Shown one piece after another: positions 8,913 through 29,068 of a DNA stretch of 35,825 nucleotides. Origin of the DNA: an uncultured Clostridia bacterium (GTDB taxonomy: Bacteria > Bacillota > Clostridia > Lachnospirales > Lachnospiraceae); NCBI GenBank assembly GCA_947304065.1, contig CAMZAI010000002.1, positions 1 to 35,825 of the forward strand. The letters run 5' to 3'. The first letter of the stretch is position 1. Every line of letters starts with the position of its first letter. The notes beneath the pieces were generated by a model, which searched no databases, had not been told where the DNA came from, and saw nothing but the letters and a program-made list of their open reading frames with translations. The translations under genes and the position numbers were made by a program.

Positions 8913-10592
8913 TTATACTTCCATGATCACGGGAAGGATCACGGGGCTTCTGCGCATCCTCTTCCAGAGGTAATCGCTCAGCTCATCCTTAACCCTGTTC
9001 TTTATCCTGCTGTAATCCGTGATATTCCTGCAGTAGCAGTCGTCGAGCGTGCTGTTCACGACATCGGTGAGCTCCTCGATGAGTTCCTCCGACTCTCTCA
9101 TGTAAACGAAGCCTCTCGAAATGATATCGGGACCCGATACAACCTCATGCGTCGCCTGCTCGATCGCCATGACTACCATGATAAGGCCCGCCTCGGAAAG
9201 CATCTGTCTGTCGCGCAGAACGACATTGCCTACGTCGCCGACGCCCAGACCGTCAACCATGAGTCCGCCCACCTGAACATGTCCGGTGATCGCAGCGCGC
9301 TCCTCGTTAAGCGTGAGCACGTCGCCCGAATTCAGAATAAATGCGTTCTCCTTCGGAATACCCATCGCCATCGCGATCTCACGCTGCATCGAAAGATGTC
9401 TGTACTCGCCGTGTACGGGAATGGCGTATTTGGGCTTTGTGAGCGCATAGATCAGCTTGATCTCTTCCTGGCTCGCGTGGCCCGAAACATGTGCGTCCGA
9501 ATAAATGACCTTCGCTCCCTTCTGCGAGAGCTCGTTTATCACCTTCGTGATATTCTTTTCGTTGCCCGGGATGGCCGAAGAACTGAATATTACAACGTCT
9601 CCGGGTTTAAGCGTAACCTTCTTGTGAATGTTCGAGGCGATCCTCGAAAGCGCCGCCATGGCCTCTCCCTGGCTGCCCGTGGTTATGAGCACGAGCTTGT
9701 CGTCCGGGTAGTCCTTCATGGTCTCGATCGGAATGATCGTGGTGTCCTTAGCCTTTACATAGCCGAACTCAACAGCCGTCGATACGACATTGACCATGCT
9801 TCGGCCTTCGATAACGACCTTCCTTCCGAATTTCTCGGCGGAATTGATGATCTGCTGTACGCGGTCGACATTCGACGAGAAGGTCGCCACGATGATCCTG
9901 TTCTGGGCGTTGTCCGCGAAGATCGTATCAAAGGTCTTTCCAACCGTCTTCTCCGACATCGTAAATCCGGGTCTCATCGCGTTCGTCGAATCGCACATGA
10001 GCGCGAGCACGCCCTTCTTGCCGAACTCGGCGAATCTCGCAAGATCGATCGTCTCGCCGTATACCGGAGTGAAATCGACCTTAAAGTCGCCTGTGTGGAT
10101 AACGGTTCCCGCGGGTGAATGGATGGCCAGCGCGCATGCGTCCGCGATGCTGTGGTTCGTCCTGATGAATTCCACCCTGAAGTCGCCGAGGTTGATGTTC
10201 TGGCCGTAAACAACGGTCTTCAGCTTCGCCTTCTTCGGAACCGGATGCTCTTTTAATTTGTTCTCGATAAGGGCAACGGTAAGCCTGGTCGCGTAAACGT
10301 TGACCGGGATCTCGTTCAGCACGTAAGGCAGGGCTCCGATGTGGTCTTCATGTCCGTGCGTGATGACAAAACCCTTAACTTTATCAATATTTTCCTTGAG
10401 GTACGAAACGTCCGGAACCACCAGATCGATGCCCAGCATCTCGTCCTCGGGAAATGCGATACCGCAGTCCACGACTATGATCGAGTCTTCATACTCGAAC
10501 GCCGTGATGTTCATACCTATCTGTTCAAGTCCCCCAAGAGGTATGATCTTAAGGGATGACAAATTCTTTTCTGTTTCTTTTTTCTTACTCAT
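8913..10592 (-). CDS. rnj: Ribonuclease J
   Basis: Metallo-beta-lactamase/beta-CASP: HGHEDHIGALPYVL, HTGDFKVD, DSTNAMRPGFTMSE, VSGHASQEEIKLI, PVHGEYRHL. Confidence 0.95.
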   Translation of the reverse strand: MSKKKETEKNLSSLKIIPLGGLEQIGMNITAFEYEDSIIVVDCGIAFPEDEMLGIDLVVPDVSYLKENIDKVKGFVITHGHEDHIGALPYVLNEIPVNVYATRLTVALIENKLKEHPVPKKAKLKTVVYGQNINLGDFRVEFIRTNHSIADACALAIHSPAGTVIHTGDFKVDFTPVYGETIDLARFAEFGKKGVLALMCDSTNAMRPGFTMSEKTVGKTFDTIFADNAQNRIIVATFSSNVDRVQQIINSAEKFGRKVVIEGRSMVNVVSTAVEFGYVKAKDTTIIPIETMKDYPDDKLVLITTGSQGEAMAALSRIASNIHKKVTLKPGDVVIFSSSAIPGNEKNITKVINELSQKGAKVIYSDAHVSGHASQEEIKLIYALTKPKYAIPVHGEYRHLSMQREIAMAMGIPKENAFILNSGDVLTLNEERAAITGHVQVGGLMVDGLGVGDVGNVVLRDRQMLSEAGLIMVVMAIEQATHEVVSGPDIISRGFVYMRESEELIEELTDVVNSTLDDCYCRNITDYSRIKNRVKDELSDYLWKRMRRSPVILPVIMEV

Positions 10593-20940: not shown

Positions 20941-23718
20941 TTATAACATATCTTTCAGTCCTGTGCCTATCGAATTTATTTTTCCGGAATTAATGATAGA
21001 TCCGGTCACGCGTCCAAGGGCTTTCACATCCTCTAACAGGTCATTCGCCGTAACAAGCCGGCAGCCCGCTCCGCGGATGATGATCTGCTCGAGGCCGTCG
21101 GAGGTGGCCACGCTGATATCCGTCTGCTTCGCGTTCTCGTGCGCAAAACGCTCTATGAACTTATCCGCGGTCTCGGCCTCCTTCGTATAGACAACTATGA
21201 TATTATGATGCCTGAAAAACTCGGTCGGATGGCCTTTTACACGGTACGCGTCGTATATTACGATCACCTTGCAGCCTTTCTGCGCCTGGTAATCGCAGAG
21301 AATGTCGTTAAGACGCTCCCTCGCACCGTCCACGTTGTCCTTCGTAAGCTCCGAGAGCTCCGGCCATTTGAAAATGATATTGTAGCCGTCGACCAGAAGG
21401 TATTTATCCTTCATGTCGAACGGATTCATAAACCGCTTCAGGCCGCTCGCATCGCTGCTCTTGCCGCTTTGTGCCGCGCCGGTTCCGCCCGCGGACGCCT
21501 TTTCTGCTTTATAATCCCGGTAAGCAGCGGCGCTGTCAGCTCTTTTATGTTTTCTGAACGGATTCCTGTAGGTCTTCTCTCTCTTGTTCGCGTGAGAGGT
21601 TTTGGCAATGATCGCGTCGATCTCATCGGTCCCGATCGGAGGTGCTTCACCCGCATGCGAGACAAAATTGATCGGCATCATCTGCTCGGGATCGGTCTCG
21701 GATACCAGCTCTCCGGTATCCTGGTCCCAGTCGAGATGCTTATAGCTGTCGACATCGTTCCACTCAACGACAAAGCCGGCTCCGTGCGCGCAGAATACCG
21801 ATGACGAGGGATTGCGCAGATCTGCCTCGGGCACATAACCCGACGCCGCGACAACCTCATCGGTATTGTGGCAGGGCAGATATCCGTAAAATGAAAGATA
21901 AACGCTTCCCAGACCGCCCGTATAGGCTGCGACTTCCTTCGAATAGCCCTGCATCAGCGCTGCGGGCGCGATACCGGTAAGTCCAACCATATCGTCCGCG
22001 CCGACCTCGTACTGCGAAGTAATCCTTCCGCAGCGCGCCTCGACATCTGTCATCGCCCTTCCGCAGTTTACGCGCGGAAGCTCTATCGTGATCTCGTAAT
22101 AAGGCTCAAGGAGCACGCATTTGCCTTCTGTACGGGCCCTCATAAGTCCCTGACGTATGGCGCGGTAGGTCGACTGTCTGAAATCTCCGCCCTCGGTATG
22201 TTTTAAATGCGATCTTCCGGCCACGAGCGCGATGTTCACATCGGTCAGCTCCGCTCCGGTCAGCACTCCCTTATGCTTCTTTTCGAAAATATGCGTAAAT
22301 ATGAGCCTCTGCCAGTTCAGCTCCAGGAAATTCGTTGAAACGCGCGATTCCGCGCCGATCCCGGATCCCCGCTCCGCGGGTTCGATCAGCAGCTGTACCT
22401 CGGCGTAATGGCGCAGCGGTTCGAAATGTCCGACGCCCAGCACAGGTTCGGAAACAGTCTCTTTATAGAGCACGCTTCCCCTGTCAAAATCCACGTCCTC
22501 TCCGAAGCGGTCCATCAGCTGCCTCTTCAAAATCTCCAGCTGGATCTCGCCCATGATCCTGATCTGCAGTTCCCCGAGTTCCGCGTTCCAGGCGATGCTC
22601 AGAGTAGGATCCTCTTCCTCGAGCTGCCTGAACTTCGGCAGGAGTCTCTGCAGGGCCGAACGGTCACGCGCAAGGACCTTATATGTCATTACGGGTACGA
22701 TATCATTGGCTGCGAGTTCTTCCTCGCTGCCGAGTCCCTGTCCGGGATAAGTGGCGGTAAGGCCGAGCACCGCAACTACCATGCCCTGCTCCGCCGCATC
22801 TGCCGTATCGTATTTCTCGCCGGAATAAACCCTGATCTGCGTGATCTTCTCATTATACTCAACAGCTTCCGCCTCAGGTGTTTCTTCCGTGGGCTTACGT
22901 AAAAGCAAAGGCTCTTCTTTTACAGCCTCGTAAGTGATCACGTCCCGGTTCTTTAAGACTCCGCCCGTGATCTTCATATATGTCAGCCTGTTCCCGTCGG
23001 TATCGCGTCCGATCTTGTACACGCGCGCACCGAAAGCATCCTCGGGATAAGGAACGGGCGCAAATCTTGCCAGTCCGTCGAGGAATTCATCGACTCCGTC
23101 GAGTTTCAGCGCAGAGCCGTAAAAGCACGGAAAAAGCTTCCTCTCGCCGATCAGCGCACGGACCGTATCGTCCGTGAGTTTCCCGGTCTCCAAGAAGCTT
23201 TCCATCACGTCTTCATCGCACAGAGCTATCTTCTCATCCAGCTCATCCGCCGCAAAATCGACGCATCCGTCCGAAAGCCTGCCCTCGAGCTGAGCCTGCA
23301 GCGCGTCCTTATCGCAGCCCTCGCGGTCCATCTTGTTGACGAAGATGAAGGTAGGGATGTCATAGTGATCGAGCAGCTTCCAGAGCGTACGCGTATGCGC
23401 CTGAATGCCGTCCGTTCCGCTGATTACAAGGATAGCCGCGTCGAGCACCGAAAGAGCTCTCTCGGTCTCCGTGGAAAAATCCACGTGCCCGGGCGTATCG
23501 ATCAGCGTGAATTCTGCGTCTCCGCGCGTAAATACGGCCTGCTTCGAGAAAATAGTAATTCCCCGTTCACGTTCGAGGGCATAATTATCAAGGAAGGCGT
23601 CTTTTTTATCGACTCTTCCCAGCCTGCGGATCCTGTCGCATTTGTACAGGATTGCTTCGGATAATGTCGTCTTGCCCGCATCAACATGAGCGAGGATTCC
23701 TATTACAAGTCTGTGCAT
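20941..23718 (-). CDS. Tet(M)/EF-G-like ribosomal-protection-type GTPase fused to C-terminal NYN/YacP (Rae1-like) endonuclease domain
   Basis: G-motifs AHVDAGKTT, RGIT, DTPGH, NKMD; domain IV/V LLEPYYEITIELPR; then KYLLVDGYNIIFKWPELSELTKDNVDGARERLNDILCDYQAQKGCKVIVIYDAYRVKG...VVYTKEAETADKFIERFA...ISVATSDGLEQ, which closely matches Bacillus YacP/Rae1. Confidence 0.92.
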   Translation of the reverse strand: MHRLVIGILAHVDAGKTTLSEAILYKCDRIRRLGRVDKKDAFLDNYALERERGITIFSKQAVFTRGDAEFTLIDTPGHVDFSTETERALSVLDAAILVISGTDGIQAHTRTLWKLLDHYDIPTFIFVNKMDREGCDKDALQAQLEGRLSDGCVDFAADELDEKIALCDEDVMESFLETGKLTDDTVRALIGERKLFPCFYGSALKLDGVDEFLDGLARFAPVPYPEDAFGARVYKIGRDTDGNRLTYMKITGGVLKNRDVITYEAVKEEPLLLRKPTEETPEAEAVEYNEKITQIRVYSGEKYDTADAAEQGMVVAVLGLTATYPGQGLGSEEELAANDIVPVMTYKVLARDRSALQRLLPKFRQLEEEDPTLSIAWNAELGELQIRIMGEIQLEILKRQLMDRFGEDVDFDRGSVLYKETVSEPVLGVGHFEPLRHYAEVQLLIEPAERGSGIGAESRVSTNFLELNWQRLIFTHIFEKKHKGVLTGAELTDVNIALVAGRSHLKHTEGGDFRQSTYRAIRQGLMRARTEGKCVLLEPYYEITIELPRVNCGRAMTDVEARCGRITSQYEVGADDMVGLTGIAPAALMQGYSKEVAAYTGGLGSVYLSFYGYLPCHNTDEVVAASGYVPEADLRNPSSSVFCAHGAGFVVEWNDVDSYKHLDWDQDTGELVSETDPEQMMPINFVSHAGEAPPIGTDEIDAIIAKTSHANKREKTYRNPFRKHKRADSAAAYRDYKAEKASAGGTGAAQSGKSSDASGLKRFMNPFDMKDKYLLVDGYNIIFKWPELSELTKDNVDGARERLNDILCDYQAQKGCKVIVIYDAYRVKGHPTEFFRHHNIIVVYTKEAETADKFIERFAHENAKQTDISVATSDGLEQIIIRGAGCRLVTANDLLEDVKALGRVTGSIINSGKINSIGTGLKDML

Positions 23719-23721
23719 ATA

Positions 23722-24843
23722 TTATTTAAAAAATCTCTTTTTCTTTCCTTCCTCGGGTCCGGCGCTTCCGCCCATAGCCTCGTCGAACTTCTTCAGGAGT
23801 TCCTTCTGCTCGGAATTGAGCTTGGTGGGAACCTGAACAATGAGGGTTACGTAATGGTCGCCCCTTACGTTCTTGTCGCGTACCGAAGGAACGCCCTTGC
23901 CCTTAAGCCTGATCCTGGTCTCGGTCTGTGTTCCGGGCTTTACGTCATAGATCACATCGCCGTCGATCGTGGATATCCTGATCTCTCCGCCGAGAGCCGC
24001 AGTAGCGAAGCTCATCGGAGCAGTGGAGTAAATGTCCATTCCGTCACGCTGGAAAATAGGATGGTCGCTTACGCTGACCTCAACGTACAGATCGCCTCTG
24101 GGTCCGCCGTTCTCGCCGGGCTCACCCTTCCCTGAAATACGGATGCTCTGGCCGTCGTCGATACCTGCGGGTACGGAAACCTGGATCTTTTTGCGCCTCG
24201 AGATATATCCCGAGCCGTAGCAGTTCGGGCACTTATCCTTGATGATCTTACCTGTGCCGCGGCAGTCCGGGCATGCCTGAATGCTCCTGGTCATGCCGAA
24301 AAGAGTCTGCTGCGTGTACGCAACCTGTCCCTTACCGCCGCACTTCGAGCATGTGGTGGCGCTGGTGCCGGGCTTTGCGCCTGTTCCGTGACAGTTCTCG
24401 CACTCTTCCTTCAGCGTGATCTCGAGCTCCTTATCGACGCCCTTCATGGCCTCGTCAAAGGTGATCCTTATGCGTGCGCGAAGATTTGCGCCCTTCTGGG
24501 GACCTGTGGGATTACGTCTGGCTCCTCCGCCGAACATACCTCCGAACAGATCTCCGAACAGGTCGGTGAAGTCCATGCCGTTGAAGTCAAATCCACCGCC
24601 GCCCATGCCTCCGTTTTCGAAGGCCTGATGTCCGAACTGGTCGTACTGACGGCGCTTATCGGGATCCGAAAGCACAGCGTACGCCTCTCCGACCTCTTTG
24701 AACTTTTCCTCGGCGGTCTTATCACCCGGGTTTGCGTCGGGATGATACTTTTTGCCGAGGGTCCTGTAGGCCTTTTTAATTTCATCGGCCGACGCGTCTC
24801 TCGAGACACCGAGGACCTCATAATAATCTCTTTTCTCTGCCAT
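23722..24843 (-). CDS. dnaJ: Chaperone protein DnaJ
   Basis: J domain with HPD (YHPDANPGD), Gly-rich region, four CxxCxGxG-type zinc motifs. Confidence 0.97.
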
Positions 24844-24989: not shown

Positions 24990-26924
<1,935 letters not shown>

Positions 26925-26977: not shown

Positions 26978-27643
26978 TTAGTTGGCTACCTTTACCATCG
27001 AGTGTCTTACGACGCTGTCGCGGTACATATAGCCCTTCTGGAGCTCTTCGCTGACCGTGTTCTCACCGAACTCGTCATTCTCCTCATGCATTACCGCATT
27101 GTGGAGATTCGGATCGAATTCCTTTCCTACCGCCTCGATAGGCTTAACTCCGGCCTCCTCGAGCGACGACATCAGCTGCCTGTATACCTTATCCATGCCC
27201 TGAACGAAAGGATCGTCCTTCTTATCCTCGGGAACGCTTGCGAGTCCGCGCTCAAAGTTGTCTATGGTCGGGAGTATCTTCTCAACGATGCTCTTCGCGC
27301 CGACCTCAAACATCTGGGCCTTCTCTTTATCGTTTCTCTTGCGGAAATTATCGAACTCCGCGAGATTCCTCAAAAGTCTGTCGTTAAGTTCCTCAACCTT
27401 GCCGGTGAGCTCCTCGATCTTTACATCCTTCTTGTCTTTCTTGTCCTTTTTCGTGAACAATGAGACCTTTTTCTTTTCCTCCGAGCCTTCCTCAGCCTCT
27501 TCGCCTTCGTCTCCGATCGGGATCTCTTCTCCCGCGTCTTCTTCGAGGACTTCCTCAGCGGCCTCGTCTTCCGCCTTCTCAGCGGCTTCCTCGGCAGCCT
27601 TGCGAATGGCTTCCTTGATAAGCTCTTCCTTTACGTCTGACAT
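26978..27643 (-). CDS. grpE: Nucleotide exchange factor GrpE
   Basis: LLRNLAEFDNFRKRNDKEK, LPTIDNFERGL, FDPNLHNAVMHEE, GYMYRDSVVRHSMVKVAN; acidic N-terminus. Confidence 0.96.
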   Translation of the reverse strand: MSDVKEELIKEAIRKAAEEAAEKAEDEAAEEVLEEDAGEEIPIGDEGEEAEEGSEEKKKVSLFTKKDKKDKKDVKIEELTGKVEELNDRLLRNLAEFDNFRKRNDKEKAQMFEVGAKSIVEKILPTIDNFERGLASVPEDKKDDPFVQGMDKVYRQLMSSLEEAGVKPIEAVGKEFDPNLHNAVMHEENDEFGENTVSEELQKGYMYRDSVVRHSMVKVAN

Positions 27644-27663: not shown

Positions 27664-28710
27664 CTACTTGTTTTTGAATATCGAATCGAGATCGTTCATC
27701 AGATTCTTAAGAGTCGCGACAACCTTCTCATAGTCCATTCTCTTCGGTCCGATGATGCCGACCTTGCCGTAAACGCCCTCATCCATCCTGTAGGTGGCGG
27801 TGACAACGGAGCAATCCTTCATCGAGTCGATCGGGGTCTCGCCTCCGATATAGACCTGAATGTCGTTCTTCGGCTCGTCGTCATGCCCGCTGCCATCCAG
27901 CTTATTATCTATCAGCTCCGCGAGCTCCTGCTTATCCTCGAGCGTGAACAGAAGGTTCTGCGCCGTCGCGGTATCGGTGAGCTCCGGATACTTGAAAAGA
28001 TTCGTGGCACCGCTCGTATAGACCTGTATCTGGCCTTCCTCTTCCATCGAATTCGCAACCGCGTCGAGAATGTCTCCGACCAGGGATGTATGCTCGCCGG
28101 CCTGCTCCTTCATCTTCTGGACGATGCCGATATTTATCTCTTCGAGATCAAGTCCCACAAGGAATGTGTTCAGGATCAGGTTAAGCTTCAGAACCACATC
28201 CTTCTCAACAGGTTCGCTCACGGGAATGATCTTGTTCTTCGGGATATTGCCCTCAAGAAGGATAACCGCGAGTATGTGGGTGGGATCGACCTCGGTAAGC
28301 TGTATGAACTTTACCTTACGGCTTCTGTATTTCGGCGTGGTGATCATGGTCGCGTAGTTCGTATTGACCGCGAGGAGCTTAACAACCTGCTGGAGAAGTG
28401 TCTCGATCCTGTCGGACTTCTCCGTGAGCTGGTCGCGCATCGTGTTAACCTCTTCGACCTTCTCTTCCATCATCGTATCGACATAAAGACGATACCCCTT
28501 ATCCGTCGGAATACGTCCCGCGGAAGTATGGGGCTGGATCAGATAACCGAGCTCCTCAAGGTCCGCCATCTCGTTACGGATGGTAGCCGAGCTGAGGCTC
28601 AGGTCGGTGTACTTGGAGATCGTGCGCGAACCTACCGGCTCACCCGTCTCCAGGTAATTCCTGATGATAGCCTGAAGTATCTTCACTTTTCGATCATCGA
28701 GCTGCTCCAT
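27664..28710 (-). CDS. hrcA: Heat-inducible transcriptional repressor HrcA
   Basis: RKVKILQAIIRNYLETGEPVGSRTISKYTDLSLSSATIRNEMADLEELGYLIQPHTSAGRIPTDKGYRLYVD. Confidence 0.97.
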   Translation of the reverse strand: MEQLDDRKVKILQAIIRNYLETGEPVGSRTISKYTDLSLSSATIRNEMADLEELGYLIQPHTSAGRIPTDKGYRLYVDTMMEEKVEEVNTMRDQLTEKSDRIETLLQQVVKLLAVNTNYATMITTPKYRSRKVKFIQLTEVDPTHILAVILLEGNIPKNKIIPVSEPVEKDVVLKLNLILNTFLVGLDLEEINIGIVQKMKEQAGEHTSLVGDILDAVANSMEEEGQIQVYTSGATNLFKYPELTDTATAQNLLFTLEDKQELAELIDNKLDGSGHDDEPKNDIQVYIGGETPIDSMKDCSVVTATYRMDEGVYGKVGIIGPKRMDYEKVVATLKNLMNDLDSIFKNK

Positions 28711-28760: not shown

Positions 28761-28787
28761 TTAGCACTCAATCAGTAGGAGTGCTAA
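28761..28787 (-). promoter_or_regulatory. CIRCE element (HrcA operator)
   Basis: TTAGCACTC-N9-GAGTGCTAA, a perfect match to the CIRCE consensus, 50 bp upstream of the hrcA start. Confidence 0.98.
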
Positions 28788-28798
28788 TACCCTATAAC

Positions 28799-28827
28799 AA
28801 TATACCTCTACCCGTTTTTATTGTCAA
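28799..28827 (-). promoter_or_regulatory. SigmaA promoter of the hrcA-grpE-dnaK-dnaJ operon
   Basis: Minus strand TTGACA - 17 bp - TATATT immediately upstream of the CIRCE element. Confidence 0.88.
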
Positions 28828-28894: not shown

Positions 28895-29068
28895 TTACTG
28901 TTTGTAATGGCATTTCCCGCTCATTGCACAAGTGCCGCAATCGCAGCCGCAGGAAGCTTTTCCGCTTCTCTTATCCTTTACCATCTTCCTGACAATAAGG
29001 AAAACCACTGCTATCAGCACCAGCGATATAATTATCGTAGCTGCATTGGCCGAGATCCATTCCAACAT
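28895..29068 (-). CDS. FeoB-associated Cys-rich membrane protein
   Basis: 57 aa, not in the ORF track: MLEWISANAATIIISLVLIAVVFLIVRKMVKDKRSGKASCGCDCGTCAMSGKCHYKQ*. One TM helix plus a Cys-rich tail. Confidence 0.82.
   Translation of the reverse strand: MLEWISANAATIIISLVLIAVVFLIVRKMVKDKRSGKASCGCDCGTCAMSGKCHYKQ

Follow-up and report, generated by a model that had tools for sequence, protein, structure and literature searches.

Rae1 of Bacillus subtilis (YacP/Rae1) has been described as a ribosomal A-site mRNA endoribonuclease (PMC6613710; PMC12320835), and proteins of the Tet type bind where EF-G does and extend to the tetracycline site in the decoding center (PMC8161019). Both meet in an architecture published in 2015: ten Clostridiales species have Tet proteins with a YacP-like NYN domain, for which resistance by means of an RNase was suggested (Atkinson 2015, PMC4342817). 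That paper gives no functional test of the Tet-NYN proteins, and our literature search found no experiment on any fused protein. Here we analyzed a gene of this type in a window of 35 825 nt (the whole stretch of DNA under study) from an uncultured member of the Lachnospiraceae. A first-pass annotation made from the letters alone had suspected that the architecture might already exist in databases, and in this it was right. The gene shares with the published clostridial proteins the single ORF composed of a GTPase and a C-terminal YacP NYN domain, but while PMC4342817 puts them into the Tet subfamily, we observed a clade of its own with its own loop and extension, in which rae1 is replaced, and in this lineage the fusion sits in the dnaK operon. 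The architecture is thus already known; to it our analysis adds the separate clade, the loop/extension signature, the single fusion in the GTPase tree, the rae1 exchange and the heat-shock operon. We lean, with modest conviction, towards the view that the fusion is the Rae1 of its species, a ribosome-dependent mRNA endonuclease that is linked in one polypeptide to an EF-G/Tet-like GTPase of its own and acts on stalled ribosomes.

The fusion gene (positions 20941–23718; this and all features of the protein lie on the minus strand) encodes 925 amino acids, which according to Pfam and a structure model form a translational GTPase, a C-terminal extension, a disordered linker and an NYN (YacP/Rae1) nuclease. 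Reading of the ORF and the Pfam domains of EF-G type confirmed that one unbroken frame holds a complete GTPase, as had been noted in the first pass. The G domain covers residues 5–221 (23056–23706; Pfam GTP_EFTU, E = 4e-50) and contains the motifs AHVDAGKTT (starting at residue 10), RGIT, DTPGH (74) and NKMD (128). It is followed by EFG_III at residues 342–411 (Pfam), by domain IV at residues 415–528 (22135–22476; Pfam EFG_IV) with its loop III at residues 501–514 (GRSHLKHTEGGDFR; 22177–22218, defined by alignment) and by domain V at residues 535–618 (21865–22116; Pfam EFG_C). The C-terminal extension with the pattern GYxxCHN...SVFCxHGxG...W..V..H comprises residues 612–661 (21736–21885; family alignment and structure model), and the disordered linker with one short conserved helix comprises residues 670–768 (21415–21711; structure model). 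A profile search placed the NYN nuclease domain proposed for the C-terminus at residues 774–902 (21013–21399; Pfam NYN_YacP, PF05991) with E = 1e-44 and 152.8 bits, above the gathering cut-off of 24.6; its motifs LLVDGYN, EAETAD and ATSD start at residues 774, 847 and 871. An assembly error or frameshift joining two genes can be dismissed, because about 105 of 289 Clostridia genomes and 78 of the 80 named loci contain the same fused ORF.

Among solved nucleases B. subtilis YacP/Rae1 comes closest: its crystal sequences (5MQ8 and 5MQ9) are matched by the NYN part with E = 6e-24 and have the same acidic NYN residues. The catalytic acids, already recognized in the first pass, are intact: in a proper alignment D777, D823, D852 and D874 showed no variation among 32 fused and 24 stand-alone NYN copies. 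The C-terminal part has diverged from that of B. subtilis Rae1. Our copy matches positions 1–131 of the 166 profile positions, the remainder (132–166) being unrecognizable, and many other fused copies reach position 165. A frameshifted Rae1 C-terminus was considered and rejected, as inspection by eye of the other two frames beyond residue 905 did not reveal an obvious continuation. In B. subtilis Rae1 the R166P change was recovered as a suppressor, in keeping with loss of function (PMC6613710).

Searching the window's own genome (81% complete) for a stand-alone rae1, a check proposed in the first pass, we found no NYN gene besides the fusion, and across Clostridia the fusion tracks the loss of rae1. 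Among 289 Clostridia genomes a second NYN copy occurs in 4 of the 105 with the fusion, and a stand-alone copy in 84 of the 184 without it (Fisher P = 8e-16, a value that overstates the independent evidence because the genomes share ancestry). The stand-alone NYN genes mostly follow the order cysS-mrnC-rlmB-rae1-sigH, in which the gene names were assigned from sequence motifs and from the gene order in B. subtilis. Whereas Rae1 of B. subtilis stands alone and adjoins rlmB, no rae1 was found in the rlmB-sigH slot of any of the three fused genomes inspected (G287, G121 and G333). Taken together, the fusion has probably taken over from a separate Rae1 enzyme in its genomes. One locus (L179, genome G377) has the fusion together with a diverged stand-alone NYN gene beside an rlmB-like gene. 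The NYN tree has poor resolution and by itself gives no evidence of a single fusion event.

For the GTPase module the closest solved structures are those of Tet(O), Tet(M) and EF-G. The domain IV loop reads GRSHLKHTEGGDFRQ, exactly as given in the first pass, and it is nearly fixed in the GTPase clade as RxHxKHTEGGDFR; in a sample drawn without regard to the motif, xxHx[KN]HT[ES][GS]GDFR was kept in 27 of 27 readable sequences. H504 of the fusion aligns with the translocation histidine of EF-G (GSYHEVDSSEMAF). Loop III retains the length and the DFR end of Tet(M), but the fusion lacks the SPxSTPADFR loop that every true RPP in the comparison, Tet B(P) among them, possesses. Relative to Tet(M), Tet(O) and Tet B(P), with which it shares the EF-G-like domain order and about 30% identity over 610 residues, the fusion thus has RxHxKHTEGGDFR in place of SPxSTPADFR and a different C-terminal extension. 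The latter is common to fused and unfused members of the clade, while RPPs and EF-G are without it. EF-G has the domain order, the fold and the loop histidine in common with the fusion, but the fusion falls into a separate clade and adds the extension and the nuclease. Neither family model describes the protein well, with 381.6 bits against a cut-off of 775 for NCBIfam tet_protect, about half of that required, and 247.3 bits against 659.4 for TIGR00484 (EF-G); the unfused sister GTPases score 379–450 bits on tet_protect.

We calculated two GTPase trees, one with 71 rows and one with 38 rows and a careful method, and their topologies agree. In the 38-row tree the fused members form one clade (support 100/99). 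Fused and unfused GTPases together form one clade (100/100) apart from the true RPPs, and Tet(O), Tet(S), Tet(W) and Tet B(P) form their own (100/100), with the fusion outside. Support for the unfused group as a single clade is weak (80/68). Judged from these alignments and trees, the GTPase is a clade of its own, set apart from the true tetracycline-protection proteins, and the fusion event happened once in the GTPase tree, with unfused sisters existing. Tet B(P) is not the founder of the unfused group, because it carries SPASTPADFR and groups with the RPPs. A further EF-G-like group (L189, L192 and L200), for which we found no name, is sister to the true RPPs in the trees and has a loop of roughly HxxHxxPxDF.

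A pattern scan of GTDB genomes revealed at least 595 relatives, mostly in Lachnospiraceae and other Clostridia. At the class level, the fusion is present in 105 of the 289 Clostridia genomes and an unfused GTPase, usually about 650 aa long, in 18; in the phylum as a whole the family is far less frequent (21 of 299 genomes). Unfused copies also occur in three genomes not labeled as Clostridia and on megaplasmids of Ligilactobacillus salivarius, where the gene is annotated as TetM-family resistance and lies beside rpsN and a gene with a putative role in metal homeostasis. The KHTEGGDFR GTPases in unfused form, about 650 aa long (L142–L159, L182, L195–L199 and L201–L203) come from genomes with or without a stand-alone rae1, and therefore GTPase and Rae1 can exist apart. 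Strict co-occurrence of the unfused GTPase with NYN is unsupported, since 11 of the 18 genomes have a stand-alone NYN gene, an association that is not significant (P = 0.21). Two unannotated faecal 'Bacteriophage sp.' records (MT835563.1 and MT835514.1) each contain an almost complete fusion gene, which may be host DNA that entered the virome assemblies.

To view the arrangement of the modules we used an AlphaFold model built from a 44-row family alignment, from which rows of plasmid and phage records were left out. In the model (mean pLDDT 82.8, pTM 0.64), residues 1 to about 670 form one confidently predicted module and residues 770 to about 910 a second, and Foldseek matched EF-G structures to the model over about 700 columns. 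The linker has pLDDT values below 50 at residues 675–697 and 707–768 and is hence classed as disordered; the relative placement of the modules is not fixed by the model. In 92 fused proteins the tether measures 60–161 residues with a median of 84. Within the otherwise variable linker, the helix at residues 697–711 (21586–21630) has conserved Glu, Ile and Thr positions (approximately EEIDxIxxxTFxAN) and is perhaps a docking motif. The extension at about residues 612–661 had gone unremarked in the first-pass annotation, as had the dnaK operon and the CIRCE element described below. Its Cys and His residues C616, H617, C643 and H661 are conserved, which makes them a candidate metal site, and a sequence search found no solved homologue of it.

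The fusion is the fifth gene of a series that begins with hrcA-grpE-dnaK-dnaJ, all on the minus strand. The hrcA gene for the heat-shock repressor (27664–28710) is followed by grpE (26978–27643), dnaK (24990–26903) and dnaJ (23722–24843), whose stop lies 3 nt ahead of the ATG of the fusion. Before hrcA we found an exact CIRCE operator, TTAGCACTC-N9-GAGTGCTAA (28761–28787; 0 of 100 shuffles), and directly upstream of it a promoter-like site TTGACA-17-TATATT (28799–28827, minus strand). No terminator-like site was observed between dnaJ and the fusion, and no known RNA leader or attenuator near the fusion gene. This layout is that of an HrcA/CIRCE operon, and heat induction of the fusion would be expected from it. 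In the closest relative found, L062 from an uncultured Lachnospiraceae, the fusion also stands directly after dnaJ, but no dnaJ was found near the fusion in the other 79 named loci; heat-shock control would therefore be specific to this small lineage. A conserved gene neighborhood was likewise rejected, with no neighbor common to more than 10 of the 80 named loci and dnaK linkage confined to L062. A GreA-like ORF (by eye) lies on the same strand in 4 of the 80 loci, and in L073 it immediately follows the fusion. A small ORF MLEWISANAATIII...CGCDCGTCAMSGKCHYKQ (28895–29068, minus strand), located shortly upstream of the heat-shock promoter, resembles an FeoB-associated Cys-rich membrane protein.

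From the A-site position of Rae1 (PMC6613710; PMC12320835) and the position of Tet-type proteins at the EF-G site and decoding center (PMC8161019) one would expect both modules to want one site. The proposal in the first-pass annotation that the two activities share a substrate site therefore holds as far as the A site is expected for both, but we would not expect both to be docked at once, and they probably act in turn or on neighboring ribosomes. Sequential action is allowed because the tether spans 60–161 residues. The fusion of a Rae1-type nuclease to a GTPase of ribosomal type is confirmed; the order of action, the GTPase first and then the nuclease, is our conjecture. In such a scheme the GTPase module would bind ribosomes with an unproductive (stalled or blocked) A site in the position of EF-G, and its His-containing domain IV loop would enter the decoding center. 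GTP hydrolysis would clear or reset the A site and the GTPase would then depart, whereupon the NYN domain, kept close by the disordered tether of about 100 residues, could cut the A-site mRNA of the same ribosome or of a collided neighbor. The usual trans-translation and exonucleases would complete the process. In this lineage the gene would be co-transcribed with hrcA-grpE-dnaK-dnaJ under CIRCE/HrcA, and the fusion would therefore be made when protein synthesis and folding are under stress.

A rival explanation is the 2015 proposal of an antibiotic-protection factor, in which a tetracycline or a different drug of the A site would be ejected by the GTPase, and mRNA cleared from drug-stalled ribosomes by the NYN domain. 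An RNase-based resistance mechanism was proposed there (PMC4342817), Tet(O) and Tet(M) are the nearest solved relatives, NCBI labels relatives as TetM, TetW, TetO or TetS family, and loop III has the length and DFR end of that of Tet(M). From the lost Tet(M) proline the first-pass annotation had argued against simple tetracycline protection. The direction of this argument is upheld by the tree and the whole loop, but the proline taken by itself is weak evidence, because a S508A/P509A/V510A triple mutant of Tet(M) was reported active (PMC4750697). Stronger evidence is provided by the entire loop, which lacks the SPxSTP of all compared true RPPs, by the tree, in which the clade is separate from Tet(O/S/W) and Tet B(P), and by true tet genes coexisting with the fusion: several fusion-bearing genomes also have one or two ordinary RPPs of 639–644 aa (loop checked in L208). 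The tet_protect score far below its cut-off, and the occurrence of the fusion in about 80% of 100 related genera in a neighborhood that is not conserved, also speak against this explanation, and on this comparative evidence resistance appears unlikely as the main job of the fusion.

Two further roles would give the nuclease another purpose, and we consider both improbable. A LepA/BipA-like GTPase might place the NYN domain to trim rRNA or tRNA precursors in ribosome assembly. A part in rRNA/tRNA maturation has been proposed for NYN domains (Anantharaman and Aravind 2006, quoted by PMC4342817), an mrnC-like gene and rlmB share a cluster with stand-alone rae1, and co-expression with chaperones would suit assembly stress; however, the published descriptions of B. 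subtilis Rae1 are of an endonuclease that cuts mRNA in the A site (PMC6613710, PMC12320835), and the domain IV loop and the EF-G histidine are conserved as in a factor of the decoding center. Alternatively, the fusion might tune particular mRNAs in a codon-specific manner, as B. subtilis Rae1 does on a few short ORFs, with the GTPase chiefly boosting ribosome occupancy. The few substrates named for B. subtilis Rae1 in the literature consulted (S1025, yrzI/spyTA and bmrCD) and the tolerance of B. subtilis to its loss (PMC6613710) would fit such a role, yet an entire EF-G-like GTPase whose loop is strictly conserved seems excessive for tethering alone, and the fusion is close to universal in the family. 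An anti-phage system was also considered and rejected, the sole match being weak and of GTPase type (LeoA, E = 1.5e-5).

Beyond the rescue role favored here for the fusion itself, the KHTEGGDFR GTPases may represent an unrecognized class of translation factors that opens the A site for Rae1, fused to it in the majority of Lachnospiraceae and their relatives, working with it in trans in others and heat-shock-controlled in this lineage. They would then define a GTP-dependent ribosome-rescue nuclease pathway that is unrelated to tetracycline resistance though so annotated; this wider reading is speculative, and we hold it with clearly less confidence. If the rescue reading is right, a very common 'tetracycline resistance' protein of gut bacteria would be a housekeeping ribosome-rescue enzyme, and resistance-gene counts would be affected by the misannotated fusion. 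Rae1 would gain a dedicated GTPase partner, so that access of the nuclease to the A site and the coupling of cutting to rescue become testable, with the copy in the heat-shock operon offering an easy handle for induction. About 10 kb from the fusion and on the same strand, the window also contains a gene for RNase J (8913–10592, minus strand), with prmA, an RNA methyltransferase gene and thiI in between; RNase J is a plausible partner for clearing the cut mRNA.
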